Of a DNA stretch of 43,244 nucleotides, positions 6,809 to 33,042 are shown piece by piece. Under the pieces are notes generated by a model that had not been told where the DNA came from, made no database searches, and saw nothing but the letters and a program-made list of their open reading frames with translations. The stretch's first letter is position 1; the number at the start of each line of letters is the position of its first letter. The translations under genes and the position numbers were made by a program. The stretch lies in NCBI RefSeq assembly GCF_001427785.1, contig NZ_LMHM01000001.1, forward strand, positions 39,087 to 82,330, in the 5' to 3' direction. The DNA comes from Lysobacter sp. Root690 (GTDB lineage Bacteria; Pseudomonadota; Gammaproteobacteria; Xanthomonadales; Xanthomonadaceae).

Positions 6809-8683
6809 TTAAGCCGCGTCGTACAACGCCATCCACTCCGCCTCGGCCTTGGCCAGTTCGGCGGCGACTTTCTCGCGCTGCTTCGCAAGTTCCGCGGCGT
6901 TGTCGCCACCGCCGGCGTACTTGGTCGGGTCGGCGAGGTCCATATCGAGCGTGTGCAATTTCGATTCCAGCTCGGCCATGCGCTTTTCGGCTTCGGCCAG
7001 CTTGAGCGGGTTGGCCTTACGCGAGGATTTCGCTGTCGGTGCCGCCGCGCTCGCGGCGGCTGCCGCGGCCGCCGCGGCCTTGGACGCGGCCGCGCCCTTG
7101 CCGTCGTTGCTGTTGTCGCGCGTGCGCAGCCACACCGCGTAGGCGTCGAGGTCGCCGTCGAACGGCTGGGCCACGCCGTCGGCCACGCGCCAGAAGGTTT
7201 CGCAGACCAGGCCGATGAGATGGCGGTCGTGCGAGACCAGCACGATCGCGCCTTCGAAATCCGACAAGGCCTCGGCCAGCGCTTCGCGCACGTCCAGGTC
7301 TAAGTGGTTGGTCGGTTCGTCGAGCAGCAGCACGTTCGGCTTGCGCCAGGCGATCATCGCCAGGGCCAGGCGCGCGCGCTCGCCGCCGGAGAAGCCATCG
7401 ACCGATTCGAACGCGCGGTCGCCGGGGAAATTCCACTTGCCGAGGAAATCGCGCAACTGCTGGGTCGGCACGCCGGGCGCGATCTCGATCAGATGATCGA
7501 TCGCGCTGACGCCTTCATGCAGCGATTCGACCGTATGCTGGGCGAAGTAGCCGATGCGCAGGTCCGGATGGCCGCTGCGTTCTCCGGTCAGCAGGTCCAG
7601 CTCGCCGACCAGCGATTTGACCAGGGTCGATTTACCCGCGCCGTTCGGACCGAGCAAGGCGATGCGATCGCCGGCTTCGAGGATGAAGCTGACATCGTCG
7701 AGCACGACGTGATCGCCGTAACCGCAATCGGCATGGACCAGGCGCAGCAATGCGTGCGGCAGCTTGACCGGGGCCGGGAACTCGATCCGCATCGCGCGCT
7801 CCATGCGCACCGCCTCGGTGCCGACCATTTTGGCCAGACGCTTGACCCGCGACTGCGCCTGCTTGGCCTTGGCCGCGCTGGCGCTGAAGCGGTCGATGAA
7901 GCTCTGCAGGTGGGCGCGTTCGGCCTGCTGCTTTTCGTGGGTGATCTGCTGCAGGCGCAGGTGTTCGGCGCGCTGGCGCTCGAACGCGGTGTAGTCGCCG
8001 GTGTACAGCTTGGCCTTGCCGTCGTGCAGATGCAGGGTGTGGGTGGTGACTTCGTCGAGGAACTCGCGGTCGTGCGAGATCAGCAGCAAGGTGCCCGGGT
8101 ATTTCAGCAGCCATTGCTCCAGCCACAGCACCGCGTCGAGGTCCAGGTGATTGGTCGGTTCGTCGAGCAGCAGCAGGTCAGACGGCGTCATCAGCGCGCG
8201 CGCCAGGTTCAGCCGCACCCGCCAGCCGCCGGAGAATTCCTTGACCGCGCGTTCGTGGGTGTCGGGCGAGAAGCCCAGGCCGTGCAGCAGCTTGCCGGCG
8301 CGCGCGGTGGCGTCGTAGCCGCCGAGCTCTTCGAGCTGGTGGTGGGCCTCGGCGACCGCTTCCCAGTCCTCGCGCTCGACCGCTTCGCGCTCGGCCACCA
8401 GGACCTTGTAGACGGTGGCGTCGCCGGACAGGACGAAGTCCAGCGCCGGGTCGTCCAGGGCCGGGGTTTCCTGGGCCACGCTGGCGATGCGCACGCGGTT
8501 GGGCACGTCGATGTCGCCGCGATCGGCCTCGACCTCGCCCTGGATGGCGGCGAATAACGACGACTTACCAGTGCCGTTACGACCGATCACGCCCACCCGC
8601 CAACCGGCGTGCAGGGTCAGGTCTACGTTGGACAGCAGCAGGCGTTCGCCGCGCCGCATGGCGAAATCACGGAAAGAAATCAT
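6809..8683 (-). CDS. yheS: ABC-F family ATPase YheS
   Basis: A 624-residue soluble ABC-F protein with two ATP-binding cassettes and no membrane domain. ABC-F proteins bind the ribosomal E site and relieve or tune translation. Walker A1 is GRNGTGKSS (34-42), Walker A2 is GPNGAGKST. Both cassettes have ABC signatures (FSGGWRVRL, FSGGERARL) and LLLDEPTNHLDLD Walker B motifs. The inter-cassette linker (LRLQQITHEKQQAERAHLQS...KAKQAQSRVKRL) is the family's charged P-site tRNA-interacting helix pair. The C-terminus carries an Ala-rich linker and a coiled coil of about 80 residues, as in E. coli YheS (about 637 residues). The gene stands alone; TonB-dependent receptor 1 is divergent. Confidence 0.93.
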   Translation of the reverse strand: MISFRDFAMRRGERLLLSNVDLTLHAGWRVGVIGRNGTGKSSLFAAIQGEVEADRGDIDVPNRVRIASVAQETPALDDPALDFVLSGDATVYKVLVAEREAVEREDWEAVAEAHHQLEELGGYDATARAGKLLHGLGFSPDTHERAVKEFSGGWRVRLNLARALMTPSDLLLLDEPTNHLDLDAVLWLEQWLLKYPGTLLLISHDREFLDEVTTHTLHLHDGKAKLYTGDYTAFERQRAEHLRLQQITHEKQQAERAHLQSFIDRFSASAAKAKQAQSRVKRLAKMVGTEAVRMERAMRIEFPAPVKLPHALLRLVHADCGYGDHVVLDDVSFILEAGDRIALLGPNGAGKSTLVKSLVGELDLLTGERSGHPDLRIGYFAQHTVESLHEGVSAIDHLIEIAPGVPTQQLRDFLGKWNFPGDRAFESVDGFSGGERARLALAMIAWRKPNVLLLDEPTNHLDLDVREALAEALSDFEGAIVLVSHDRHLIGLVCETFWRVADGVAQPFDGDLDAYAVWLRTRDNSNDGKGAAASKAAAAAAAAASAAAPTAKSSRKANPLKLAEAEKRMAELESKLHTLDMDLADPTKYAGGGDNAAELAKQREKVAAELAKAEAEWMALYDAA

Positions 8684-8887: not shown

Positions 8888-11290
8888 ATGTCCCGTCGTA
8901 TTTCTCTGCTCAGCACCGCCGTTTCGATCGCTCTCGCCACCTCGCCCGCCTGGGCCCAGGACGCCGGCGCCCCCGAAGCCGCCGCCTCGAACCCCACCAA
9001 CCTCGACACCCTGATCGTCACCGGTACCCGCGTCGCGGACCGCACCGTGGCCGAGTCCACCGCGCCGATCGACATCATTTCCCCGCAGACCCTGGAGTCG
9101 ACCGGCACCGTCGAACTGGCCACCGCCCTGTCGCGCGCCCTGCCTTCGCTGAATTTCCCGCGCCCGGCGATCACCGACGCCACCGACGCGGTGCGTCCGG
9201 CGCAGTTGCGCGGCCTCGCGCCGGACCAGGTGCTGGTGCTGGTCAACGGCAAGCGCCGCCACACCACGTCCTTGATCAACCTCAACGACAGCATCGGCCG
9301 CGGCTCCTCGCCGGTCGACCTCAACGCGATCCCGATCGCCGCGATCGAACGGGTCGAAGTGCTGCGCGACGGCGCCTCGGCGCAATACGGCTCCGACGCG
9401 ATCGCCGGCGTCATCAATATCGTGCTCAAGGGCTCGGGCGAAGGCGGCTCGATCGCCGCGCGCTACGGCCAGTTCAGTGCCGGCGATGGCAAGCAGTACC
9501 AGTTGTCCGGCGATGCCGGCTTCAAGCTCGGCGAAAACGGCAGCGTGCATCTGTCCGCACAGGGCGGCCACAGCGACAACACCGACCGCGCGCGGCCCTA
9601 TCTCGGCACGGTCACGCCGACCAGCAATCCGCCGGGCAAGGTCGTGCATCGCTACGGCGATCCGGAAATCGACCAGGCCGCGGTCGCATTTAACGCCGAG
9701 TACAAGGCGGCCGAGGGCGTGGAGTTCTATTCCTTCGGCACCGCCAGCCGCCGCCGCGCGATCTCCAACGGCTATTTCCGCGCGCCCGGCAATGCCAACA
9801 ACATCCGCTCGGTGTATCCCGACGGCTTCCTGCCGCAGATCGACAACGTCAGCAAGGACCGCGCCCTGGTGCTAGGCCTGCGCGGCCAGACCGCCGGCGG
9901 CTGGAACCTCGACCTGAGCTACAACTACGGCCAGAACCAGCTCGATTTCGACGTGCGCAACAGCCTCAACCGCACCCTCGGCGCGACCTCGCCGCACGAC
10001 TTCTACATCGGCGCGCTGGAAGTGACCCAGAACGTGCTCAACGCCGATTTCAACAAGGCTTTCGACGTGGGTTGGCTGAAGTACCCGCTCACCTTCGCCT
10101 TCGGCGCGGAATGGCGCGGCGAGAAATTCAACCAGAGCGCCGGCGAACTGGCGTCGTACGTCGCCGGCCCCGAACCCGGCGCGCCGGGCGCGCAGGTGTT
10201 CCCCGGCTTCACTCCGTCCGACGCCAGCCGCCGCAATCGCAACAGCCATTCGTTCTACGCCGACCTGGAAACCGACGTGACCGACAAGCTGTCGCTCGGC
10301 GCGGCCGCGCGTTACGAAAGCTACAGCGACTTCGGCGAAACCACCTCGGGCAAGCTGTCGGCGCGTTACGCCTTCACCGACAAGGTGGCGCTGCGCGGCA
10401 CCTTGTCGACCGGTTTCCGCGCGCCGTCGCTGCAGCAGCAGTTCTACCAGTCGACCCAGACCGTGATCGTGCTCGGCGACCCGACCCCGTTCCAGGTCCG
10501 CACCTTCGCCGTCGACGACCCGGCCGCGATCGCGCTCGGCGCCGAGCCGCTCAAGGCCGAGGAATCGACCAACATCGGCCTGGGCCTGGTGCTGCAGCCG
10601 ATCGAATCGTTGTACATCACCGTCGACGCGTATCAGATCGATATCGACGACCGCATCATCCTGTCGGAAAACCTGCGCGGCCCGGCGGTGGCGAGCTTCC
10701 TGGAAGCGCGCGGTTATCCGGGCATCACCGGCGGCCGCTACTTCACCAATGCGGTCGACACCCGCACCCGCGGCATCGATATCGTCGGCAGCTACAAATG
10801 GACGCTCGGCAGCGGCGCGCTCGATCTGACCGCCGGTTACAACCACAACAAGACCACCCTGGAGCGCATCGCCGCCAATCCGCCCGAACTCACCGCCGGC
10901 GGCCTGAACCTGCAGCGCATCGGCCGGGTCGAGCAAGGCCGCATCACCCAGGGCGCGCCGCGCGACAAGTTCTTCCTCGGCGGCAGTTGGAGCACCGGCC
11001 CGTGGCGGTTCGACGCGACCGGCACGCGTTACGGCGAATTCCACAGCTTCAACGACGACCCCAGCGGCGTGCGCGACCAGACCTACGGCGCGAAGTGGAC
11101 CCTCGACCTGGCCGCGACCTATGCCATCGACGGCTGGGAATTCACCGTCGGCGGCGACAACGTGCTCAACGAGTACCCGGACGAATCGATCTACGCCAAC
11201 AGCGAAAGCGGCCAGTTGCCGTACAGCGGCAACTCGCCGTTCGGCTTCAATGGCGCGTTCGCTTATGCGAAGGTCGGGTACAAGTGGTGA
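8888..11290 (+). CDS. TonB-dependent receptor 1
   Basis: An 800-residue outer-membrane receptor that would import a scarce ligand using TonB energy; the ligand is not identifiable. A signal peptide cleaves after AWA (about residue 23). A TonB-box-like LIVTGTRV follows near residue 40, then a plug domain (VLVLVNGKRRHTT, IERVEVLRDGASAQYGSDAIAGVINIVLK) and a 22-strand barrel ending in YKW. GGAG stands five bases ahead of the ATG. It is a close paralogue of the receptor at 30661-33042, with long near-identical DNA blocks in the plug. No periplasmic or inner-membrane transporter partner is adjacent. The downstream hydrolase is on the other strand. Confidence 0.95.
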   Translation: MSRRISLLSTAVSIALATSPAWAQDAGAPEAAASNPTNLDTLIVTGTRVADRTVAESTAPIDIISPQTLESTGTVELATALSRALPSLNFPRPAITDATDAVRPAQLRGLAPDQVLVLVNGKRRHTTSLINLNDSIGRGSSPVDLNAIPIAAIERVEVLRDGASAQYGSDAIAGVINIVLKGSGEGGSIAARYGQFSAGDGKQYQLSGDAGFKLGENGSVHLSAQGGHSDNTDRARPYLGTVTPTSNPPGKVVHRYGDPEIDQAAVAFNAEYKAAEGVEFYSFGTASRRRAISNGYFRAPGNANNIRSVYPDGFLPQIDNVSKDRALVLGLRGQTAGGWNLDLSYNYGQNQLDFDVRNSLNRTLGATSPHDFYIGALEVTQNVLNADFNKAFDVGWLKYPLTFAFGAEWRGEKFNQSAGELASYVAGPEPGAPGAQVFPGFTPSDASRRNRNSHSFYADLETDVTDKLSLGAAARYESYSDFGETTSGKLSARYAFTDKVALRGTLSTGFRAPSLQQQFYQSTQTVIVLGDPTPFQVRTFAVDDPAAIALGAEPLKAEESTNIGLGLVLQPIESLYITVDAYQIDIDDRIILSENLRGPAVASFLEARGYPGITGGRYFTNAVDTRTRGIDIVGSYKWTLGSGALDLTAGYNHNKTTLERIAANPPELTAGGLNLQRIGRVEQGRITQGAPRDKFFLGGSWSTGPWRFDATGTRYGEFHSFNDDPSGVRDQTYGAKWTLDLAATYAIDGWEFTVGGDNVLNEYPDESIYANSESGQLPYSGNSPFGFNGAFAYAKVGYKW

Positions 11291-16476: not shown

Positions 16477-17217
16477 TCAGTAGGACAACGCCAGCGCGAT
16501 CAACACCGCCGCTTCGACGAGTTCGGTCAAGGCGCCGCAGGCATCGCCGGTCATGCCCTGCAGGCGACGCAGACAGGCCCGACGCCAGATCGCGAACACC
16601 ACCGCCGCGACCGCGACCGCCAGACCGCCGCGCCAACCGGCCAAGGCGCAGCCGCCGACGGCGATCGCGAGCGCGAGCCAGCACGCCGCGCGTGGCGCAT
16701 CCACCAACGACTGGCCGAGACCTCCGCTGCGTACGTACGGCAGCATCAGGAATGCCAGGGTCAACCCAGTGCGCGCCAGCAACGGCGCGAGCAACAGCGC
16801 GGCCCATGCCGGCGCGGGCAGGCTTGCGAGCGCGGCGAATTTCAGCAGCAGCGCCAGCACCACCGCGACCACACCGATCGGCCCGCTGCGCGGATCTTTC
16901 ATGATTTCCAGCGTGCGTTCGCGACTCGCGGCCGGATCGGCGCGCATGCCGCCGATCCAGGCATCGGCGCTGTCGGCCAGACCATCCAGATGCAAGGCGC
17001 CGGTCAATGCGACCCACGCCGTCAGCAACAACGCCGCCGACAGCAGCGGCGGGCGCGTCTGCAACGCCCAGGCCAACGCGCACAGAACGCCGCCGATCAA
17101 CAACCCGACCGCGGGATACCAGATGAGCGAGCGCGATTGCGCGCGCGCTTGTTCGAACACCCGCGCCGGCACCGGAATTCGGGTCAGAAAACCGATCGCG
17201 GCGAGCAAGGCCTGCAT
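16477..17217 (-). CDS. cobS: Adenosylcobinamide-GDP ribazoletransferase (cobalamin synthase)
   Basis: Joins adenosylcobinamide-GDP to alpha-ribazole or its phosphate, the last step of cobalamin nucleotide-loop assembly, in the inner membrane. The 246 residues match the family. The hallmark metal-binding HLDGLADSADAW is at about 75-86, followed by the KDPRSGPIGVVA segment. Five to six hydrophobic spans follow. Its ATG shares one base with the cobC stop (TGATG), so it is translationally coupled. It is the final gene of the operon; downstream only a short GC hairpin without a U-tract is seen at 16408-16427. Confidence 0.96.
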   Translation of the reverse strand: MQALLAAIGFLTRIPVPARVFEQARAQSRSLIWYPAVGLLIGGVLCALAWALQTRPPLLSAALLLTAWVALTGALHLDGLADSADAWIGGMRADPAASRERTLEIMKDPRSGPIGVVAVVLALLLKFAALASLPAPAWAALLLAPLLARTGLTLAFLMLPYVRSGGLGQSLVDAPRAACWLALAIAVGGCALAGWRGGLAVAVAAVVFAIWRRACLRRLQGMTGDACGALTELVEAAVLIALALSY

Positions 17218-17855
17218 CAGCCGTCGACCGGATCGGCCCGTACCGCATCGTGGCGGGCGTCATCGCTACGCGGCACATCGACCGCGTCCCGCAGCGGTTT
17301 CGGCGGCCACGGCAAGGCATGCAGCGAAGCATGCGCGACATCGATATTGAGCAGATCGGTATAACGCCGGCCCGCGGCGAGACAACGCAGCAGGCGGATC
17401 ACGCCGCCGTGGGTCACCACCAGCACGCGCCGGCCTGGGTAGGTGCGCAGCAAGTCGCCGACCGCGCCGGTCAGACGAGTGGCGAAATCGACGAAGCGCT
17501 CCGCGCCCGGCGGAGGATGCGCGACCGGATCGGCCCAGAACCGCGCCAGCGCTTCGCCTTCGTCGGCGGCGATGGCGTCGACCGTGCGGCCCTGCCAATC
17601 GCCGAAATGGTATTCGCGCAGCGCCGGTTCCAGCGCCAACGGCAAACCGCGCGACTGCGCCAGTTCCTGCGCGAACGCCGCGCAGCGCTGTAGCGGGGAG
17701 CTGACGATCGCATCCCACTCGCGCCCGAGCACGGCGTCGCGCATCTGCCGCCAACCCAGTTCGAGCAAGGCGTCGTCGAGTTGACCGCGGTAGCTGCGGT
17801 GGCCGGTGTCGCCGTGCCGCAGCAGATCGATATGGGTGGTGGTGGACGAATTCAT
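17217..17855 (-). CDS. cobC: Histidine phosphatase, probable alpha-ribazole phosphatase
   Basis: A 212-residue histidine-phosphatase. The phospho-accepting residue is H14 in LLRHGDT, the second catalytic His is H149 in VVTHGG, and E81 in REYHFGDWQGR is the likely proton donor. In this operon it most probably removes the phosphate from alpha-ribazole-5'-phosphate or adenosylcobalamin-5'-phosphate. Its family alone would also allow a phosphoglycerate-mutase-like activity, so the specific role rests on context between cobT and cobS. The last ~30 residues, Pro/Asp/Arg-rich, extend beyond the fold. It starts 60 bases after cobT and overlaps the cobS start by one base. Confidence 0.88.
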   Translation of the reverse strand: MNSSTTTHIDLLRHGDTGHRSYRGQLDDALLELGWRQMRDAVLGREWDAIVSSPLQRCAAFAQELAQSRGLPLALEPALREYHFGDWQGRTVDAIAADEGEALARFWADPVAHPPPGAERFVDFATRLTGAVGDLLRTYPGRRVLVVTHGGVIRLLRCLAAGRRYTDLLNIDVAHASLHALPWPPKPLRDAVDVPRSDDARHDAVRADPVDG

Positions 17856-17915: not shown

Positions 17916-19022
17916 TCATGCCTGTTGCGCGGCCGGTTCGTGACTGGATCCGGACACGCCGGCCTGGGCGAAGGTCGCCATGCCGTTGTGCAGCGCGCAG
18001 GCCAGGCGCAGCAACGGCACCGCCATCGCCGCGCCGCTGGCCTCGCCCAGGCGCATGCCCAGATCGAGCAAGGGCCGCGCCCGCAGGGCCTCGAGCACCG
18101 CAGCGTGGCCGCGTTCGTGCGAGCGATGCGCGTACAGCAGCCACTCGCCGCAACCCGGGTTGAGCCGCTGCGCGGCCAGCGCGGCGACGCTGGCGATGAA
18201 GCCATCGACCAGAACCGGCAAACCGGCCTGGGCCGAGGCCACATACGCGCCGGTCAGCGCGGCGATCTCGAAACCGCCGAGCCGGCGTAGCCGTTCCCAA
18301 TCGCTGTCAGCCGGCGCATGCAGCGCCAGCGCGCGTTCGATCACCGCGATCTTGTGGGCGATGCCGCTCGCGTCCAGGCCGGTGCCGGCGCCGGTCAGGT
18401 CGGACGGCGAACGCCGCAGCAAGGCGCTGGCCAGCGCCGCCGCCGAGGTGGTGTTGGCGATGCCCATCTCGCCGCCGATGAACAACTGCGCGCCGGCATC
18501 GAGCGCGGCGCGCACGCTGGCCGCGCCGGCGCCGAGCGCGGCGTGCAACTGGGCCTCGGTCATCGCCGGGCCTTCGCAGAAATTGCGCGTGCTCGCGGCG
18601 ATCACCGCCCGATGCACGCCGGCCACCGCGCCGGGATCGTTGACCGTGCCCAGGTCGACCACGTCCAGGTTCGCGTCGAGCGCGCGCGCGAGCACCGCGA
18701 TCGCCGCGCCGCCGCCGGTGAAGTTGCGCAGCATCTCGCCGGTCACCGCCTGCGGAAACGCCGACACGCCTTCGGCCGCGACGCCGTGATCGGCGGCGAA
18801 CACGCTGATCCAGACCCGGTCGATCGCAGGGCTGGGCGTGTGTTGCAGACCGGCCAGGGTCACCGCGAGGTCTTCGAGCACGCCGAGCGATCCTGGCGGC
18901 TTAGTCAACTGCGCCTGACGCGCGCGCGCCTGCGCCTGCAGGTCCGCATCGGGACGCTTGCAAGGCCGCAGCCACCATGCGTCCGCAGCGATGGTCGATC
19001 GGTTCGATATTGGCTCGTTCAC
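17916..19022 (-). CDS. cobT: Nicotinate-nucleotide--DMB phosphoribosyltransferase
   Basis: Transfers phosphoribose from nicotinate mononucleotide to 5,6-dimethylbenzimidazole to make alpha-ribazole-phosphate. 368 residues. Family landmarks are [32 protein letters not shown], the [14 protein letters not shown] loop, TGLD, and the [15 protein letters not shown] segment that carries the catalytic Glu. The start is taken as GTG at 19022, with GGGAG seven bases upstream, 35 bases after the cobU stop. An in-frame start further upstream would overlap cobU and add unrelated Arg/Gly residues. Usual GEMGIGNTT has Ala for the second Gly here. Confidence 0.94.
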
Positions 19023-19057
19023 TGCTTCGCTCCCGTGCGACTCGTTGCGTCCCGCGC

Positions 19058-19563
19058 TCACAACGCGGGACCTTTCAATACCAGCGGCAAGCCGGCGGCG
19101 ACGAACACCACCCGCTCGCACAGCGCGCCCAGCGCCTGATGCAGGCGTCCGGCTTCGTCGACATAACGGCGGGTCAACTCGCCCATCGGCACCACGCCGA
19201 GGCCGACCTCGTTGCTGACGAGCAGCACCGTTCCGTTCAATCCGGGCAAGGTCGCCAGCAAGGCCTCGCGTTCGCGCTCGAATGCTTCACCATCCGGATC
19301 GCCCAGCAGATTGCTCAACCACAGGGTCAGGCAATCCACCAGCACGCAGCGACCCGGCGCCGCGTGCATGCGCAAGGTCCCGGCCAAGGCGATCGGTTCT
19401 TCGATACAGCCCCATTCGGCCGGACGGCGCGCGCGATGATGGGCGATGCGCTCGCCCATCTCGGCGTCGCGCGCCTGCGCGGTGGCGATGTAGACCACGT
19501 CCGCGAACGGCGTGGCCAGGCGTTCGGCCAAGGCACTCTTGCCCGAGCGCGCGCCGCCGAGAA

Positions 19564-19576
<13 letters not shown>
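19058..19576 (-). CDS. cobU: Adenosylcobinamide kinase/guanylyltransferase
   Basis: A bifunctional enzyme that phosphorylates adenosylcobinamide and then transfers GMP to make adenosylcobinamide-GDP. The 172 residues are the usual length. The P-loop GGARSGKS is at 7-14. H46/H47 in [11 protein letters not shown] is the site of GMP attachment in Salmonella CobU (H46). The Walker B-like [14 protein letters not shown] and the [27 protein letters not shown] block are intact. The start at 19576 overlaps the end of cobQ by 13 bases. Named cobP in Pseudomonas-type nomenclature. Confidence 0.96.
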
Positions 19577-21047
<1,471 letters not shown>

Positions 21048-21051
<4 letters not shown>

Positions 21052-22046
21052 GGCTGCGTCCTCTCGTGCATGACGTCGGCCAGGGCCGTGTCGAGCCGCC
21101 GCCATTGCGCTTCGTCGTCCGGGAGGCCGAAACGCAGGCTGCGCGGCTGTTCGAAATAACGGGTGAACACCCCACAACGAGCCAGCGCTTCGTGCAACGC
21201 CAGCGCCTCGTCGTTGCGATGCCATTGGAAGAATGCGCAGCCGCCGCTGGCGCGCAGGCCGTGCGCACTCAACAAGGCGGCCAGCCGTTCGCCTTGCGCC
21301 AGCAATTGCGCGCGCATCGTCGCCTGCCACTCGCGATCGGTCAGCGCGTGCCGCAGCGCATGGCGGGTCGGGCCGGTGACGGTCCACGGGCCGAGCCGTT
21401 CGCGCAGCGCTTGCAGCAAAACTTCGTTCGCACAGACGAAACCGGCGCGCGCGCCGGCCAAGCCGAAGAACTTGCCGACCGAGCGCAGCACGATCAATCC
21501 TTCGCGCGCGCTCTCGCCGCACAGGCTCAGTTCGGGCGTGGCGTCCATGAAGGCTTCGTCGATCAGCAGCCAGCCACCGCGCGCGGCCAGCCGCGCGTGC
21601 AGGTCGAGCAAGGCCGCGCGTTCGAAGCGCTCACCGCCGGGGTTGTTGGGATGGATCAGCACGATCACATCGAAATCGTCGGCCTGCGCGATCAACTCGG
21701 CGGCACCGCGCAGTTCGACGAGATGACCGCAACGCCTCCAGGCCTGCGCATGTTCGGCATAGCCCGGCGCAAGCACGCCGACTGTCGAGGCCGCACGCAA
21801 TTCGGGCAACGCCTGGATCGCCGCCTGCGAGCCGGCGACCGGCCACAGCGATTCGGCGCCGTAGTAAGCGCGGGCGACATCGATCAATCCATCGTCGTCT
21901 TCGGGCAAACGGTGCCAGGCGCGCGCGGGTATCTCGGGCACCGGCCAGGCCACCGGGTTGATGCCGGTGGACAGATCGAGCCAATCCTGCACGGCGATGC
22001 CGTACTGCCGTGCCGCGCGCAACAAGCGGCCGCCGTGTTCAAGCAT
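21048..22046 (-). CDS. cobD: L-threonine-O-3-phosphate decarboxylase (aminopropanol linker)
   Basis: A PLP enzyme of the aminotransferase I/II fold that makes (R)-1-amino-2-propanol phosphate for the cobalamin linker. 332 residues. It starts [12 protein letters not shown]; the D.STGINP substrate loop is near 24-31, HPNNPGG at 132-138, the pyridine-N binding D163 in LLIDEAF and the Schiff-base lysine K192 in [17 protein letters not shown]. This is CobD in Salmonella naming and CobC in Pseudomonas naming. AAGGA stands ten bases ahead of the ATG. It begins 170 bases after cbiB, the longest gap inside the biosynthetic part of the operon, and overlaps cobQ by four bases. Confidence 0.94.
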
Positions 22047-22216
22047 TGCGATGGGTTCCTTGCGAATGTCGCGACGTCTTTCGTGGGCGCGGCTTTGGCC
22101 TCGCCGCTGTCGACTGAGCCGCCGCGTTGCGACTGAAAGCCGTCGAGTCTGAAAGCCCCGCCGACAAAAAACCTCGGGATGAACCGATCCGTTCGCTCGA
22201 CAAGCCCGGCCGCGGC

Positions 22217-23155
22217 TCAAACATGCGCGTACGCCCATCCCGTCCAGGCCGCCAGCACGAACAGACCCACCCACACCGCCACGCCGCGCTTCACCAGACG
22301 CAACGCGCGACGAATCGAATCCGCGCTCGGTGCATCGCCCTCGCCCAGCAGCGGCCGTGTTTCCCACACACCGTGATACGGCGCCGCGTCGCCCAGCCGA
22401 ACCCGCAGCGCACCCGCGCCGGCCGCCATCACCGGTCCTGCGTTCGGGCTGTCCCAGTGCCGTGCCTGCGTGCGCCAGCAACGCCACGCAGCCGCGGTGT
22501 CGCCGAGCGCGGCATAGGTCAGCGCGGTCAAGCGCGCGGGTATCAGGTTGAGCGCGTCGTCGATCCGCGCCGCCGCCCAGCCGAAACGTTCATAACGCGG
22601 CGTGCGATAGCCCCACATCGCGTCCAGCGTGTTGGCGAGCCGGTACAGGACCGCGCCGGCCGGGCCGAACACGGCGAACCAGAACAACGCGGCGAACACC
22701 GCGTCGCTGCCGTTTTCCAGCACCGATTCGGTCGCCGCCGCGGCGACACGTTCGCCGTCGAGCGCATCGACATCGCGGCTGACGATGCGCCCGACCGCGG
22801 CGCGCGCGCCGGCCAGATCGTCCGCCTGTAACGCCGCCGCCACCGGCGCGGCGTGTTCGTCCAGGCTGCGCAGACCGATCGCCAGATACAACGCGAACGC
22901 AGCGTACGCGGCGCCCAGCCAGAACGAATACGCGAACAGATTGCGCTGCAGCCACCATGCGGCCGCGCTCAACGGCACCACCGCGAGCAACCAGGCCATG
23001 ATTCCGCGAGCGCGGCTGTCGGCGTGCAAGGCGCTTTCGAGTGCGCGCGCGAGGCGGCCGAAACCGATCAACGGATGCAGCCGCCGCGGCTCGCCGAGCC
23101 AGGCGTCCAGCAACACGCCGCACAGCATCGTGGCCGACAGCGACGCGGCGTTCAT
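22217..23155 (-). CDS. cbiB: Adenosylcobinamide-phosphate synthase
   Basis: Couples adenosylcobyric acid to the aminopropanol (phosphate) linker in the inner membrane. 312 residues with about five hydrophobic spans. Family motifs are [20 protein letters not shown] near the N-terminus, [34 protein letters not shown], and [10 protein letters not shown]. This is CbiB in Salmonella naming, CobD in Pseudomonas naming. Its ATG overlaps the cobB stop as ATGA. The next gene starts 170 bases downstream, across a stretch with a T6 run after an imperfect GGATC hairpin (about 22165-22195) that could attenuate transcription. Confidence 0.95.
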
Positions 23156-24549
23156 GGCAGAAACAAGCGCGCGGCGGCCTGCGGGTTCGACGGAAAATAG
23201 AAATGGACGAAGCTCGCGCTCAGACGCTGGTCGCGATACAGCGCTTCGCGGCTCGGCCCGCCGTTGGGGTTGGTCGATTGCGCGATCGCCGCGGCCTCGA
23301 TCTGCGCCTGGGCGTAATGGAAGGTATGCCCGCGCAGCACGCCTTCGGGCAGCTCCACCGACTGCAAGCCCAGCGCGGCCATGCGCGGCTGAATCTGCGC
23401 ATGCCCGCGCAACAAACCGGCCATCGCACCGGAATTGCCTTCGCGGTCGCTCAACCTATCGAGCGCGTACAACAAGCCGCCGCACTCGGCGAGGATCGGC
23501 TTGCCCGCATCGCGATGCGCGTGCAGCGCCTCGCGCAAGGCCGCATTGGCCGACAGCGCCGGCAGATGCAGTTCGGGATAACCACCGGGCAACCAGACCG
23601 CATCGCAGTCGGGCAGGCTGTCGCCCGCGATCGGCGAAAACGCGATGCATTCGGCGCCCGCGTCGATCAGCAGCTGCAGATTGGCCGGGTAAACGAAACA
23701 GAACGCGGCATCGCGGGAGATCGCGATGCGCCGGCCGCGCAGCAGCGGCGGCACTTGCACGGGCTCGCTCGCCGCGAACTCCACCGGCGGCGGCAATTCG
23801 GCATCGGCGTGCGCGCCCCAGGCGTCGGCGAGCGCATCCAGACGCGCATCGATATCGCCCAGTTCGCCCGCCGCGACCAGCCCCAGATGGCGCTCGGGCA
23901 AGGCCAGCGCCGGATCGCGCGACAACGCGCCGAGCCAGCGCAAATCATCCGGCAGACTCTCGCGCAGCAACTGCACGTGATACGCGCTGCCGATGCGATT
24001 GGCGGCGACACCGTAGACCGTCAAACCTTCGCGATAACGCGCCAGACCGGTGGCGAGCGCGCCGAAGGTCTGCGCCATCGCCGATCCGTCGATCACCGCC
24101 AGCACCGGCACGCCGAGGGCCTGGGCCAGATCGGCGCTCGATGGATTGCCGTCGAACAGCCCCATCACCCCTTCGATCAGGATCAGGTCGGCCTCGCGCG
24201 CCGCCGCATGCAGACGCGCGCGCACGTCGGCTTCGCCGCACATCCACAGATCGAGCTGCTGCACGCAGTGACCGCTGGCGCGTTCGAGCACCATCGGATC
24301 GAGAAAGTCCGGCCCGGTCTTGAACACCCGCACCCGCCGCCCCTGCCGCGCATGCCAGCGGGCGATCGCGGCGGTGACGCTGGTCTTGCCTTGGCCGGAG
24401 GCGGGAGCGGACACGAGCAGCGCCGGGCAACGGGCGTTGCCGCCCGCGGGATTGGGGATTCGAGATTGGAGATTTGCAGAAGCAACGGCAGATGCCGAAG
24501 CATCCGCTTTTTCGAATCCCGAATCCCCAATCCCCAATCCCGGCTTCAC
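23152..24549 (-). CDS. cobB: Cobyrinate a,c-diamide synthase with repeat-derived N-terminus
   Basis: Amidates the a and c carboxylates of cobyrinate with glutamine and ATP (CobB/CbiA). 465 residues. The ATPase half begins [21 protein letters not shown], followed by [18 protein letters not shown]. The C-terminal glutamine amidotransferase half has its Cys in [14 protein letters not shown] and the GHTFHYA His. The GTG start at 24549 overlaps the cobO stop as GTGA, matching other junctions in this operon. The first ~38 residues are translated from a GGGATTC heptamer inverted-repeat element and look unlike any CobB. The only later in-frame candidate I see is a GTG inside LLVSAPAS, too far into the P-loop strand to be likely. 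Confidence 0.93.
24448..24541. repeat. GGGATT heptamer inverted-repeat element inside cobB start
   Basis: Degenerate GGGATTC/GGGATTG units (24449-24474) and their inverted counterparts CGAATCCCGAATCCCCAATC and on (24513-24541) flank a ~38-base centre. The arms can form a long hairpin. The same heptamer family appears at 29802-29831 and 30461-30541. Here it lies downstream of the cobB GTG and keeps the frame open. Confidence 0.85.
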
Positions 24550-25187
24550 AACTCAATCCCCTTCTGCGCCTTGATCCCCGCCTTGAACGCATGCTTGACC
24601 ACGCGCATGTCGGTCACGGTATCGGCCGCTTCGATCAGCGCATCGGGCGCGCCGCGTCCGGTGATGACCACGTGCTGTTGCGGCGGCCGCGCCGCGACCG
24701 CGGCGAGCACGTCGTCCAGCGCGATGTAGCGATGCGCCAGGGCGATGTTCAACTCATCAAGCAGGACGAAGTCGTAACCCGGATCGGCCAGCATGCGCGC
24801 GGCGATCGCCCAGGCCGACTGCGCGGCGCGGATGTCGCGCTCCTTGTCCTGGGTTTCCCAGGTGAAGCCTTCGCCCATTACGTGATAGTCCAGTTCCTCG
24901 AAACGGCGGAAGAACGCTTCCTCGCCGGTCGAGAAGCTTCCCTTGATGAACTGCACCACGCCGCACTGGAAACCATGGCCCAGCGAGCGCGCGAGCATGC
25001 CGAACCCGGACGAACTCTTGCCCTTGCCGTTGCCGGTGTTGACCACCAGCACGCCGCGCTCGATGGTCGCGCGCGCGATCTTGCGGTCGATCAATTCCTT
25101 CTTGCGCTGCATGCGCTCGCGATGGCGTTCGTCGCTGCTCGCGGCAAAGCCGGCACGATCCTTGCTGTCTTCGCTGCCGGCGCTCAT
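24546..25187 (-). CDS. cobO: Cob(I)yrinic acid a,c-diamide adenosyltransferase
   Basis: Attaches the 5'-deoxyadenosyl group from ATP to cob(I)alamin-type corrinoids (CobO/BtuR/CobA family). 213 residues. The atypical P-loop is TGNGKGKS at 51-58, followed by SGFGMLARSLGHGFQCGVVQFIKG; FETQDKE-like TWETQDKERD and LLDELNIAL segments match the family, as does the terminal [16 protein letters not shown]. The first ~20 residues are a polar extension and residues 21-45 form a charged helix. The ATG at 25187 overlaps the stop of the upstream membrane protein gene (ATGA). Confidence 0.96.
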   Translation of the reverse strand: MSAGSEDSKDRAGFAASSDERHRERMQRKKELIDRKIARATIERGVLVVNTGNGKGKSSSGFGMLARSLGHGFQCGVVQFIKGSFSTGEEAFFRRFEELDYHVMGEGFTWETQDKERDIRAAQSAWAIAARMLADPGYDFVLLDELNIALAHRYIALDDVLAAVAARPPQQHVVITGRGAPDALIEAADTVTDMRVVKHAFKAGIKAQKGIEL

Positions 25188-25792
25188 GCGGCCGCTCCGC
25201 TGCGTTGGCGGATATGGGCGAAACGGACCACCGCATAGGCGAGGAAACCGGCGCCGACGTAACCGGCCAGGGTGCCGAGCGTGCGCGGGTAATACCGCGG
25301 AATCCGATCGATGAAACCGGCCAGCGAAGCATCGGGATAACGGCCCGACAGAAAATAGAAGCCGCCCTTCGAGATCAGATACGCCACCACCGAGGTCGCC
25401 AGCAGCACCAGCACCAGCCGCGGCACGGTACTCCAGTGATCGCGATGCAGCCGCGCGTAATAGCGTCCACCGAGCCACAGCACGCCGTAGGCGAGGGCCA
25501 GCGCCCAGTACGCCGGCGACAGGCACCAGTCGGTGACCCGGCCCAGCGCCAAGCTGGCCAGATCCAGCAGCGACGACAGCACGAACAAGGCCGGGAAGAT
25601 CCAGCCCGGGCGCAGCAGCGCGCCGGCCAGGAAGAACACCGCCCACGACGCGCTTGGCAAGGCATCGACCGTGGCGAAATGCTGGCCGCGGGTGCAGATC
25701 ATCAGCGCCGCCAGGGCAAGGCCGGCGACGAACTGAGCCATGCGCGAACGCAGCGGCAGTCCGGTGGAGACAACGGGATCGATCGTCGACAT
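25184..25792 (-). CDS. Six-helix membrane protein B, S-component-like, B12 operon
   Basis: A 202-residue inner-membrane protein with about six hydrophobic segments. It is a clear paralogue of the gene just upstream (25862-26452). Shared positions include TR..HF, LP.AS.AVFFL.G..LR, the C..P.Y...LAY.VLW..GR.YA block, S...LIS.G.FY..(S/G)GRYP and LGYV.AGF.A.A. Size, helix number and the LIS.G.FY..GGRYP segment recall DUF6580-type proteins and ECF transporter S-components (recognised from memory, not searched). Embedded between btuB and cobO under a cobalamin riboswitch, it is a candidate corrinoid or cobalt carrier. GGAG stands seven bases before the ATG. Its stop overlaps the cobO start (ATGA). 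Confidence 0.85.
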   Translation of the reverse strand: MSTIDPVVSTGLPLRSRMAQFVAGLALAALMICTRGQHFATVDALPSASWAVFFLAGALLRPGWIFPALFVLSSLLDLASLALGRVTDWCLSPAYWALALAYGVLWLGGRYYARLHRDHWSTVPRLVLVLLATSVVAYLISKGGFYFLSGRYPDASLAGFIDRIPRYYPRTLGTLAGYVGAGFLAYAVVRFAHIRQRSGAAA

Positions 25793-25861
25793 ATCAGGCT
25801 CCGTGAAGATCGGGTTCGAACAACGACGCCGCCAACGACGGCACGAACGCGGCCGGGACGA

Positions 25862-26452
25862 TCAAGCCTCGGCCAGCGGACGCGCGTCGCGGGGCCGCGC
25901 ATAACGCGCGATCAGCGCATGGGCGAAGAAACCCGCGGCGACATACCCAAGCGTGGTGCGCACGAACAACGGGCCCCACTTCCACACCCGCTCGATGTAC
26001 TCGGCGAAATGCGGCTGCGGATAGCGTCCACCCCACCAATAAAACGCGCCGTTGGAAATCAGGAACGACACGCTGGCCGCCAGCAAGGCCACACCGAGCC
26101 CGCCGAGCAAGGCGCGCGGGCGCGCCGCCATGTGCGGCGCGTACAACCGGCCGGCGTACCACAGCACCGCGTAGGCGAGCAGCAGGAACGCGTACGACGG
26201 CGTCACGCAGTAGTGCTGGAAGAAGCTCAGGCCGCGGCCGGTGATCGCGATGTAGTCGATCGCCACCGCCGCCAGCAGGTAGCCGACGAACGCCGCATGC
26301 CGACGCAGATACAGACCGCCGAGAAAGAACACCGCCATCGAGGCATCGGGCAGATGCAGCGCATCGCCGAAATGATGGAAGCGGGTGGCGAGCATCAGCG
26401 TCAGCAAGGCCGCGAACAGGCCGTATTGCACGGGACGGGACGGAAGGTTCAT
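25862..26452 (-). CDS. Six-helix membrane protein A, S-component-like, B12 operon
   Basis: A 196-residue inner-membrane protein, paralogue of the following gene. Predicted helices lie near residues 8-24, 38-50, 54-70, 86-104, 115-138 and 166-184. Conserved non-helix positions with its paralogue include TRFHHF, the LPDASMAVFFL turn, CVTPSY, GRLYA and GGRYP. It is the first gene after btuB, 56 bases downstream of its stop, across an 8-bp GC hairpin. There is no ATPase, no periplasmic binding protein and no EcfT nearby. If it carries corrinoid or cobalt it would have to act as a solitary carrier or use a shared energising module coded elsewhere. The ribosome-binding site is weak (GAGAG), so coupling to btuB translation is possible. 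Confidence 0.85.
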   Translation of the reverse strand: MNLPSRPVQYGLFAALLTLMLATRFHHFGDALHLPDASMAVFFLGGLYLRRHAAFVGYLLAAVAIDYIAITGRGLSFFQHYCVTPSYAFLLLAYAVLWYAGRLYAPHMAARPRALLGGLGVALLAASVSFLISNGAFYWWGGRYPQPHFAEYIERVWKWGPLFVRTTLGYVAAGFFAHALIARYARPRDARPLAEA

Positions 26453-26508: not shown

Positions 26509-28449
26509 TCAGCGGGAGGGGCGGTAACGCAGACTCAACAGATAGTTGCGACCGGGTTGATTGTAGAAGGCGGCGGTTTCATAACGGCGATCGAAGACGT
26601 TGTTGGCCGACAGTTGCAGGCTCCAGGCCGCGTCAATGGCATAGCCCAGGCGCAGATCGGTCAGCGCGTAGCCGCCCAGGCGGCGGGTATTGGCCAGTTC
26701 GTCGTAGCGCTCGCCGGCGGCATAGACGCTGGCGCCGAGCGACCAGGACGATGCGCCATCGATGTCGAAACGGCGATCGGCATCGACCCGCGCGCTGTGC
26801 CGAGCGCGCCGCGGCAGATAGTTGTCGCGATAGGCGTTGGGGCTGTCGTTGCGCGGGTCCAACCAGGTCGCGCTGGCGCGCAGATCCCACTGCGCCAGTC
26901 GGGTATCGAGCACCGCCTCCAGGCCGCGGATGCGCGCGCGGTCGACATTGCCCGGCGCGCCGATCGAGGCGTCGTAGGCGATCAGGTCGTCGACCCGGGT
27001 CTGGAACGCGTTGAGCGACCACACGTGCTGGCGCTGCGCACCGTGGGTGCCGCGCAGGCCGACTTCGACGCTGCGCGAAGTTTCCGGTTGCACCCGCGGG
27101 TTGCCGTAGCCGGGGTAATACAGCTCGTTGAAGGTCGGCGCCTTGAATGCGGTGCCGTAGCTCGCGGTCAGCCGTAGCGATTCGCTCAGATCCCAGCCCC
27201 ACAGCGCGCTGCCGGTGGTTTGCCCGCCGAACTGGCTGTCGTCGTCGCGGCGCAGGCTGGCCTGCAGCGCATGCGCGCCGAAGCTCTGCTGCCACTGCGC
27301 GAAGGCGCCGCGCAGGATGCGGCGGTCGCGCGCATAGGCGGTGTTGCTCTCGACTTCGTCGCGTTGCCAATCGAAGCCGACGCTCAACAGACCCGCGCCG
27401 ATGCCGAAATCGCCCTGCACCGAGCCCAGTTGGCGACGGGTATCGAAGGTACTGGAGTACTTGCCGTTCTTGTAGGTGTCGCTCAAATCGGCGCTGTGGC
27501 CGGCATTGGCGGTCAGAGTCACCCGCTCGCTGGGTTTGTAACGCAGCTTGGCGCCGGCCACCTGCTGGACGTTATCGGCCTCGTTGTTCTGGCTGCCGTC
27601 GTAGTGGTTGTTGCCTTCGGCGCGGAACAGCCGCGCTTCGCCGTCCCACTGATCGTTGAAGCGATAACCGCCCTGCATGGTCAGCGAGCTGTTGCGATAA
27701 CCGTCGCGATCGGGCGAATTGGTGAAGCAGCCCGCGCCACCCGGCGAAGGCTTGCCGCGGCAGGCGTTGATGCCGTCGGTCTGTTCGTGCGCGGCGTTGA
27801 TCGAGTACCAGCCGCGCTCGCCCTTGCCGGCCACGCCGGCGCTCGCGCGACGGGTCGCGTTGCTGCCGATTGACACGCCGAAACTCGGCGCGAACGGGCC
27901 TTGCGGGCGGCGGGTGAAGATCTGGATGACGCCGCCGATCGCCTCGGACCCGTACAGGCTGGAGAACGGCCCGCGCACGATTTCGATGCGCTCGATCTGC
28001 TCGACCGGAATGTCCTGCAGCGAGGCGCCGCCGCTGGTCGCCGAACCGATCTTGATACCGTCGATCAGCACCAGCACGTGATCGGATTCGGTGCCGCGCA
28101 GGAACAGCGAAGTCGATTTGCCGGCGCCGCCGTTGTTGGCCAGGGAAGCGCCCGGGGTGCCACGCAACAGCTCCGGCAGCGAGGACGGCTGGCGCCGGTC
28201 GATCTCATCGCGATCGATCACGGTCACCGCCGCCAGGGTCGCGTCCTGGGTCTGCGCGGTGCGGGTGGCGGTCACTATCACCTGATCCAGGTCGACCGCG
28301 GCGGGCGCGGCGAATGCGGGCAGCGCGCAGAGGCTCAAGGCAAGGCCGAGGCCGGCGGTCGCAGAATGGCGAAAGCCATGCGCACGCAACGTGGACGCCG
28401 ACGACGGCACACATCGCAGGCACGAAAAGGAACGGGTACGCAAAGTCAC
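26509..28449 (-). CDS. btuB: TonB-dependent cobalamin receptor BtuB
   Basis: The outer-membrane receptor for cobalamin and related corrinoids. 646 residues. A signal peptide ends near LCALPAFAAPA, a TonB box DQVIVTATRT follows, then the plug (SSLPELLRGTPGASLANNGGAGKSTSLFLRG, HVLVLIDGIKIG, IERIEIVRGPFSSLYGSEAIGGVIQIFTRR), closely parallel to E. coli BtuB, and a barrel ending LSLRYRPSR. The barrel lacks the usual terminal aromatic residue. The start is taken as GTG at 28449, because GGAGA stands eight bases ahead and that SD is built into the riboswitch platform. First gene of the cobalamin operon. Confidence 0.94.
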   Translation of the reverse strand: MTLRTRSFSCLRCVPSSASTLRAHGFRHSATAGLGLALSLCALPAFAAPAAVDLDQVIVTATRTAQTQDATLAAVTVIDRDEIDRRQPSSLPELLRGTPGASLANNGGAGKSTSLFLRGTESDHVLVLIDGIKIGSATSGGASLQDIPVEQIERIEIVRGPFSSLYGSEAIGGVIQIFTRRPQGPFAPSFGVSIGSNATRRASAGVAGKGERGWYSINAAHEQTDGINACRGKPSPGGAGCFTNSPDRDGYRNSSLTMQGGYRFNDQWDGEARLFRAEGNNHYDGSQNNEADNVQQVAGAKLRYKPSERVTLTANAGHSADLSDTYKNGKYSSTFDTRRQLGSVQGDFGIGAGLLSVGFDWQRDEVESNTAYARDRRILRGAFAQWQQSFGAHALQASLRRDDDSQFGGQTTGSALWGWDLSESLRLTASYGTAFKAPTFNELYYPGYGNPRVQPETSRSVEVGLRGTHGAQRQHVWSLNAFQTRVDDLIAYDASIGAPGNVDRARIRGLEAVLDTRLAQWDLRASATWLDPRNDSPNAYRDNYLPRRARHSARVDADRRFDIDGASSWSLGASVYAAGERYDELANTRRLGGYALTDLRLGYAIDAAWSLQLSANNVFDRRYETAAFYNQPGRNYLLSLRYRPSR

Positions 28450-28574
28450 TGGCAGGTCTCCACGGCCGCGCCTCACCCGCGCGGTCCAGACAGGGTCGTG
28501 ACATGCGGGGGATGCAACGCGGGCACGCGCGGAGGCACGACGCCCGAGACCGGCCCTCCGCCTGTCGGTTCGCG
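28449..28574 (-). promoter_or_regulatory. Riboswitch expression platform, SD-sequestering type
   Basis: The minus-strand leader between aptamer and btuB carries GGGCCGGTCTCGGGC (plus coordinates 28542-28556). This is complementary, with one bulge, to the B12 box (28579-28594). Its core GGTCTC (28546-28551) is also complementary to the btuB Shine-Dalgarno segment GGAGACC (28455-28461). One linker can thus pair with either site. No U-tract follows, so control is most likely translational. Confidence 0.75.
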
Positions 28575-29831: not shown

Positions 29832-29880
29832 CGAAAGCGGAGGGCGCGGTGACCGGACTGCTGCTGCGTACCTACGTGCC

Positions 29881-30353
29881 GTCATTCCCGCGAACGCGGG
29901 AATCCAGTGACTTTGACGAGACAACGCAGACGACGTCGCGGCCCGAGCCTAAGTTCAAGTCACTGGATTCCCGCCTTCGCGGGAATGACGAACAAAGCAG
30001 ATCGGCGGTCGGGAGTGAGGGAGTGAGGGAGTGAGGCGTGGAATGCCGAGAGCCGAGAGTCTTACAAGCGAGAAACGTGGTAATCGGCCAGATATCCACG
30101 CCCTCCCCTACCGTCATTCCCGCGAAGGCGGGAATCCAGTGACTTTGACGAGACAACGGAGACGATCTCGCGTCACGGACCCACGCTCAAGTCACTGGAT
30201 TCCCGCGTTCGCGGGAATGACGAGCAAAAGCAGATCGGCGGTCGGGAGTGAGGAGTGGAATGTCGAGAGCCGAGAGTCTAAAAGCGAGAGCGCGATGATC
30301 GGCCAGATATCCATGTCCTCCCCTACCGTCATTCCCGCGTTCGCGGGAATGAC
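29881..30353. repeat. Tandem ~230-base repeats built on a 109-bp palindrome
   Basis: Unit 1 (29881-30112) and unit 2 (30113-30327) are near-identical direct repeats, and a third begins at 30328. Each full unit opens with a 109-base palindromic element (29881-29989 and 30113-30221): arms GTCATTCCCGCG...GAATCCAGTGACTT in inverted orientation around a ~35-base centre. In the third copy only the outermost ends remain, giving a perfect 26-base palindrome (30328-30353). Unit 1 also holds a triplicated GGGAGTGA octamer (30012-30035) that is contracted in unit 2. No gene is visible. Confidence 0.9.
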
Positions 30354-30460
30354 GAGCAAAAGCGAGTCGGCGGACGTCGTGGCGCAACTGCAATGACGCC
30401 CTTTGCCACAAGTCGCGTTGATCGACCCGCTCGCGCCGCAACCGCTCTTGCTCTTCCGAT

Positions 30461-30541
30461 TCCCCATTTCCCATTCCCCATTCCCGAATCCCGAATCCCG
30501 AATCCCGAATCCCGAATCCCGAATCCCGAATCCCGAATCCA
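30461..30541. repeat. CCCGAAT tandem heptamer array
   Basis: After four degenerate units (GATTCCC/CATTTCC/CATTCCC types), eight consecutive CCCGAAT heptamers run to about 30541. Such pure arrays are prone to slippage. It is the inverted counterpart of the array at 29802-29831. Confidence 0.92.
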
Positions 30542-30573
30542 AGACGCCTAGCACCTTTTAACTACTTGCGTTA

Positions 30574-30660: not shown

Positions 30661-33042
<2,382 letters not shown>

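Follow-up and report, generated by a model that had tools for sequence, protein, structure and literature searches.

Two Paralogous BtuM Homologues in a Riboswitch-Led Cobalamin Salvage Operon of Lysobacter

The BtuM protein of Thiobacillus denitrificans (BtuM_Td) represents a family for which a structure has been solved and in vivo experiments point to transport (Rempel et al. 2018, PMC6072759). According to that report, BtuM_Td rescues B12-dependent growth of Escherichia coli lacking btuC and btuF, a host that encodes no energy-coupling factor (ECF) module; it binds its substrate base-off with Co−S ligation, decyanates cobalamin, and requires Cys80, the essential cobalt-ligating cysteine. 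The Discussion of the same paper puts forward, as hypotheses, that the carrier topples, that diffusion is facilitated, and that adenosylation traps the corrinoid. Here we examine two genes, A and B, in a 43,244-nucleotide stretch of DNA from Lysobacter sp. Root690 (contig NZ_LMHM01000001.1, positions 39,087 to 82,330), which we call the window. An earlier note, made from the sequence alone, had described their products as two paralogous membrane proteins between btuB and biosynthetic genes in a riboswitch-controlled operon with no visible ATP-binding cassette (ABC) transporter, and had proposed them as the strongest candidate in the window for an undescribed system, one carrying corrinoid or cobalt across the inner membrane. 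What the note observed is borne out, and most of its functional guess holds; the system itself is a known one. A (25862..26452, minus strand; 196 residues) and B (25184..25792, minus strand; 202 residues) are genuine open frames, and we consider it very probable that they encode two paralogous BtuM proteins, that is, solitary, S-component-like inner-membrane carriers of corrinoids.

Identity of proteins A and B

Neither A nor B matched a Pfam or NCBIfam model above any cut-off, and the resemblance to DUF6580 suggested in the earlier note found no Pfam match up to E = 1. Searches of the PDB sequences returned one match up to E = 1 for each protein, the chain of entries 8c7p and 8ovv (phmmer against the 8c7p chain, E = 1.4e-25 for A and 2.1e-41 for B), and with a ten-row profile this chain scored E = 2e-61 and the second-best match 0.075. 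The entries are titled in the Foldseek output “Tagless BtuM in complex with cyanocobalamin” and “... hydroxycobalamin.” The cysteine of the PDB chain is residue 80 by counting along the printed match; because this numbering agrees with the Cys80 reported for the T. denitrificans protein (PMC6072759), we take the chain to be BtuM_Td. A and B are 38% and 44% identical to it, respectively (180 to 184 columns).

The predicted structures point in the same direction. AlphaFold models of A and B (predicted local distance difference test [pLDDT] scores of 89.6 and 90.4) each contain six long helices, and the top Foldseek matches are 8c7p for A (template modeling [TM] scores of 0.78/0.85) and 8ovv and 8c7p for B. 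For both models, no PDB entry other than these two reached E ≤ 0.001; the TM scores were 0.74 to 0.78 by query and 0.84 to 0.86 by target. With near full-length homology, small size (BtuM is about 22 kDa), six helices, and a predicted S-component-like fold, the two proteins have the features of BtuM membership; to judge from their sequences, they are BtuM homologues and hence a kind of system already described.

The S-component-likeness put forward in the earlier note stands. Resemblance to true ECF S-components is weak: BioY, ThiT, RibU, and FolT have six helices, as the models do, and a fold that loosely resembles theirs (TM scores of 0.39 to 0.62, E > 0.3), and A and B have no sequence match to such proteins up to E = 1. 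The S-component-like fold and these weak matches would also suit ordinary S-components that use an ECF module encoded elsewhere. The genome, which comprises 6.3 Mb in 18 contigs and is rated 100% complete, yielded no match to CbiQ/EcfT (EcfA was not searched), while 10 of 14 control genomes were positive, 9 of them above the cut-off; we regard a borrowed ECF module as hardly credible.

Cobalt ligands and divergence of the BtuM copies

The genome holds three BtuM genes: A, B, and, on another contig, C (L004:7651-8244, minus strand). C lies directly upstream of a gene for a PduO-type adenosyltransferase (L004:7079-7633, minus strand; TIGR00636, 198.5 bits, above the cut-off), and no cobalamin riboswitch was found near it in the 16 kb fetched. 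The pduO gene adjoins C in all 32 C-type loci (31 distinct) of our survey.

Ligand residues were tallied over a set of 180 sequences that differ from one another at the DNA level (52 A, 95 B, 31 C, and 2 others). The equivalent of Cys80 is present in all 180, the third copy of the genome included, and that of His28 in 171 (46/52 A, 95/95 B, 30/31 C, and 0/2 others); before repeats were removed, and with BtuM_Td included, the counts were 196/196 and 186/196. In the one C exception (L073), neighboring histidines are shifted in the alignment. By alignment, the corresponding residues of the window proteins are Cys82 (codon 26207..26209) and His27 (26372..26374) in A and Cys90 (25523..25525) and His38 (25679..25681) in B, all on the minus strand. 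We take His28 of BtuM_Td to be the second axial cobalt ligand, the role it is reportedly given in 2024 work by Martinez Felices et al. of the Slotboom group. The TR..HF motif quoted in the earlier note is the His28 motif; three of the four motifs quoted there occur as written, and the third does not, having four residues rather than three before LAY (P.Y....LAY).

These residues bear on the nature of the cargo. The genes are grouped with cobalamin genes, and CbiM-type S-components carry cobalt, which would agree with the import of cobalt ions for de novo synthesis rather than of corrinoids. The operon, however, opens with a B12-type TonB receptor and goes on to encode enzymes for adenosylation and for late or salvage steps, and CbiC, the sole marker of the de novo ring pathway that was searched, had no match in the genome (7 of 14 controls were positive). 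Since the cysteine that ligates corrinoid cobalt is invariant, cobalt ions, the second cargo named in the earlier note, are a most improbable substrate.

Six of the 52 distinct A proteins lack the equivalent of His28. Five of them come from the window's genus (G002, identical to L. enzymogenes L076, and G003, G008, G014, and G018) and have Ala or Thr at this position; the sixth, the distant L042, has Asp. In the five genus proteins (loci L010 = L076, L012, L013, L015, and L016), a His or Lys is adjacent and the cobalt cysteine is kept. Because some A proteins have lost this histidine, not every A need act like BtuM_Td. Relative to BtuM_Td, A of the window and C of the same genome also carry three extra residues directly before the Cys.

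The alignment of A with B spans 194 columns at 39% identity (E = 5e-30). Without composition correction it scores 115 bits, whereas none of 100 shuffled versions of B exceeded 31.6 bits. A recent tandem duplication was considered and ruled out, as this identity is no higher than that of A to BtuM_Td (38%), B to BtuM_Td (44%), or A to C (41%), and A, B, and C fall into separate clades of the tree. For that tree, built by a quick method, a 90% identity rule brought 195 sequences down to 130, and BtuM_Td was added, giving 131 rows. Shimodaira-Hasegawa-like approximate likelihood ratio test (SH-aLRT) values were 93 for the A clade (40 rows), 90 for the B clade (61 rows; 99 for 60 of these), and 98 for the C clade (27 rows); support is poor for 49 of the 128 inner branches. 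The named A rows all belong to Lysobacteraceae or Rhodanobacteraceae. The B clade (the 60 rows with SH-aLRT 99) takes in the BtuM that stands singly in salvage operons of Pseudomonas, Stutzerimonas, and Azotobacter and that mostly also shares B's position between btuB and btuR; unlike the window, the operons fetched from these three genera, among the best 80 of at least 465 loci, contain no A copy. Among the matches listed, the closest named relative of B is that of Lysobacter antibioticus (80% identity). On this phylogenetic footing A and B are deep paralogues, A being an old second copy and B the standard operon BtuM.

Seventeen positions, each conserved at ≥80% within its own clade, separate A from B (e.g., Asp37/Ser37, Met40/Trp40, and Thr82/Ser82 in BtuM_Td numbering), and several of them adjoin the Cys and His motifs. 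Ratios of nonsynonymous to synonymous substitution rates (dN/dS) against five relatives were 0.07 to 0.42 for A, 0.16 to 0.24 for B, and 0.08 to 0.36 for C, with A above B in four of five same-genome comparisons. All 15 pairs lie below 1, and thus A, B, and C all look maintained. The differences between A and B may reflect specialization for different corrinoids.

Occurrence of the copies and of other importers

In surveying operons, we read gene order from match coordinates. The named loci are the best-scoring 80 of at least 465 found with a B-first query, so their proportions are not population frequencies; one of them, L142, was left out of the tree and the counts, as were small loci repeating larger ones from the counts. 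Among the 79 named loci counted, 32 have the order btuB-A-B-btuR and 47 have B alone (btuB-B-btuR in 41, btuB-B-cobB in 4, btuB-B in 1, and B-btuR at a contig start in 1). The B-alone operons are mostly from Pseudomonadaceae, and their status refers to the fetched stretch rather than to the whole genome. The 61 genome-survey loci, window included, comprise 23 with btuB-A-B-btuR, 4 with A alone (3 before btuR and 1 before cobB), 32 with C beside pduO, and 2 divergent ones. Seven A-B operons appear both among the named and among the survey loci, and one C copy is likewise duplicated in the lists; excluding repeats leaves 48 A-B, 47 B-alone, 4 A-alone, 31 C, and 2 other loci. An apparent btuR between A and B, an artefact caused by the long open frames that GC-rich DNA contains, disappeared when match coordinates were used.

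BtuM matches are present in 45 of 100 genomes (our own and its relatives). The Root690 genome and 19 same-genus relatives have three BtuM genes each, with one exception that has four, and all 20 carry the A-B pair. One genome of the survey (G001) has two C copies (L055 and L056) about 25 kb apart, each with pduO; the two agree at all 420 bases compared, which suggests a recent local duplication. In a class-wide draw, BtuM was found at E ≤ 1e-6 in 43 of 370 genomes, with two copies in six and three only in our own. A cobalamin riboswitch was present in all eight operons scanned.

Where both occur, A precedes B without exception (55/55 paired loci, 48 distinct operons), with 28 to 112 bases between the profile-matched ends. 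Such strict adjacency is what an obligate heterodimer, functional only as a pair, would lead one to expect, and the earlier note had considered a heterodimer. Each type nevertheless occurs without the other in relatives' operons, namely, in the 47 distinct B-alone and the 4 A-alone ones, and in three of the four A-only genomes (G024, G040, and G070) there is no other BtuM match; BtuM_Td, moreover, is reported to work alone in E. coli (PMC6072759). Thus, each type should work alone, and an obligate pair is very unlikely.

The same genomes speak to the function of A. Its invariable place upstream of B, its higher dN/dS, the 17 clade-conserved differences, and the loss of the His28 equivalent in some A proteins could mean that A is no longer a transporter and has become either a periplasm-facing corrinoid binder or decyanase that passes cargo to B, the importer, or else a sensor. 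In G024, G040, and G070, however, A is the sole BtuM and no FecCD permease is found above the cut-off (G040 has one match below it), and A should therefore transport alone there. We consider a nontransporting A unlikely and continue to favor a BtuM carrier for both proteins.

Two loci of the survey deserve separate mention. A btuB-btuM fusion in Azotobacter vinelandii, hinted at in PMC4465626, where strain DJ is reported to lack btuM and to have BtuB as a larger fusion protein, was rejected for strain CA (L149), in which the genes occupy different frames; btuM (L149:6989-7549, plus strand) lies in its own open frame between btuB and btuR. In L142, a Xanthomonas axonopodis contig, BtuM matches fall in three overlapping open-frame pieces, so that at least one BtuM gene looks broken or misassembled.

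BtuCDF, whose presumed function of inner-membrane corrinoid import A and B would share, differs from them in that their operon has no ATPase gene and their genome no FecCD match (0 matches; 13 of 14 control genomes positive). The absence of a FecCD match implies the absence of BtuC, and a btuCDF elsewhere in the genome, which the earlier note had named, together with unimpaired uptake in a double mutant, as contrary evidence, was accordingly not found. SbmA_BacA likewise had 0 matches, with 2 of 14 controls positive. The genome encodes MetH (above the cut-off) together with an IcmF-like mutase (partly scanned, below the cut-off); both depend on B12, which indicates that the cell uses it. Corrinoid uptake without a dedicated ATPase, as proposed earlier and as BtuM predicts, is thus well supported by the lack of FecCD, CbiQ/EcfT, and SbmA_BacA matches.

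Across genomes, FecCD was found above the cut-off in 5 of 45 BtuM-positive and 23 of 55 BtuM-negative genomes (P = 7e-4), and the exclusion persisted outside the genus (P = 0.04); the FecCD model also spans siderophore permeases, and the genomes compared are not independent. The exclusion shows overall but not in the family outside the genus, and we regard it as weak, since the genus and other families account for the effect.

Operon layout and a transport model

The genes run along the minus strand in the order riboswitch, btuB-A-B-btuR-cobB-cbiB-cobD-cobQ-cobU-cobT-cobC-cobS, and from gene order and spacing we infer a single transcript. The leader contains a cobalamin riboswitch aptamer (RF00174, 28563..28823; cmscan, 101.6 bits, E = 2e-24) and is followed by btuB for the TonB-dependent B12 receptor (26509..28476, the longest open frame, whose real start may lie downstream; TIGR01779, 763.7 bits, above the cut-off). 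Behind A and B come btuR/cobA/cobO for corrinoid adenosyltransferase (24546..25187; TIGR00708, 214.8 bits, above the cut-off), cobB/cbiA for cobyrinic acid a,c-diamide synthase (23152..24549; NF002204, 418.6 bits), cbiB for adenosylcobinamide-phosphate synthase (22217..23155; TIGR00380, 197 bits), cobD for threonine-phosphate decarboxylase (21048..22187; TIGR01140, 353 bits), cobQ for cobyric acid synthase (19564..21066; TIGR00313, 467.5 bits), and cobU for adenosylcobinamide kinase/guanylyltransferase (19058..19588; NF004469, 211.8 bits). For btuR, cobD, cobQ, and cobU the coordinates are those of the stretch scanned, and the starts of the first three are approximate. The operon ends with cobT for dimethylbenzimidazole phosphoribosyltransferase (17916..19121; TIGR03160, 423.4 bits), a cobC-like gene for alpha-ribazole phosphatase (17217..17855; TIGR03162, 135.1 bits, under the curated cut-off of 162.9), and cobS for adenosylcobinamide-GDP ribazoletransferase (16477..17217; TIGR00317, 130.1 bits). 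No ABC transporter or ATPase gene lies within the operon, as the earlier note had seen, and a promoter scan gave 0 matches against 1.0 expected.

Two TonB-receptor-like proteins flank the operon (8888-11290 and 30661-33042, both on the plus strand); they share 67% identity across 786 columns, and neither reaches the cut-off of any listed NCBIfam receptor model. The window also encodes, outside the operon, a 624-residue ABC-F-type protein with two ATP-binding cassettes (6809-8683, minus strand; NF000355, 390.5 bits, barely above the cut-off), a kind of protein that is not a transporter ATPase. A short-repeat cluster at 29870-30560 gives chance translations such as RHSRERGNDG and VIPANAGIQ on both strands.

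The window proteins share with BtuM_Td near full-length homology, size, predicted fold, the cobalt-ligating Cys, the His28 equivalent, a btuB/btuR neighborhood, and a host without an ECF module. They differ in that the Lysobacter operon has two copies, with a third elsewhere, that A and C have extra residues before the Cys, and that some A orthologues lack this histidine. By analogy, the published BtuM model most likely applies to A and B. BtuB would import corrinoids into the periplasm, be they cobalamin, cobinamide, or other cobamides that are incomplete or foreign; there A or B, each acting singly, would bind the corrinoid base-off with its loop cysteine on the cobalt and the conserved histidine facing the other side. 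The loaded carrier may then topple in the membrane and release the corrinoid inside without an ATPase; inward flow would be kept up by BtuR adenosylation together with the salvage enzymes CobB, CbiB, CobQ, CobU, CobT, and CobS, which this operon also encodes. A, with partly different sequence around its ligand residues, would most likely be tuned to a different corrinoid than B.

Several points weigh against identifying A and B as BtuM carriers. Binding mode and transport are extrapolated from BtuM_Td; true ECF S-components resemble the models only weakly; and 6 of the 52 distinct A proteins lack the His28 equivalent. Mycobacterial ABC importers of the Rv1819c type were covered through the SbmA_BacA model only, which detects 2 of 14 controls. 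In the family outside the genus, moreover, FecCD occurs in 2 of 18 BtuM-positive and 3 of 22 BtuM-negative genomes (P = 1), so that replacement of BtuCDF by BtuM is not statistically shown at the family level.

In the papers searched we found no description of the A/B pairing, the A clade, or His28 loss in A proteins, although a supplementary table of PMC6072759 may list Lysobacter copies. Nor did these searches turn up a paper linking BtuM with Lysobacter or one on tandem BtuM copies; PMC8123684 mentions BtuM and is silent on copies in its BtuM passages. What is new here is real but modest: a conserved, old A/B pairing and a third copy in this lineage.

The identification removes a false “undescribed system” and names the inner-membrane step for a riboswitch-led salvage operon in bacteria without detectable BtuCDF. 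The natural A/B pairs, which have diverged near their ligand motifs, and the natural His28 variants among them provide ready comparisons for studying substrate choice and the role of the second cobalt ligand. It is tempting, if still speculative, to envisage three specialized ATP-independent carriers, with B taking complete cobalamin, A taking cobinamide or cobamides whose lower ligand differs, and C supplying the PduO-type adenosyltransferase outside riboswitch control, and with those A proteins of the genus that have lost His28 using a different cobalt chemistry in which decyanation is absent or altered. If true, such a three-carrier split would represent functional diversification within a family of solitary S-components.

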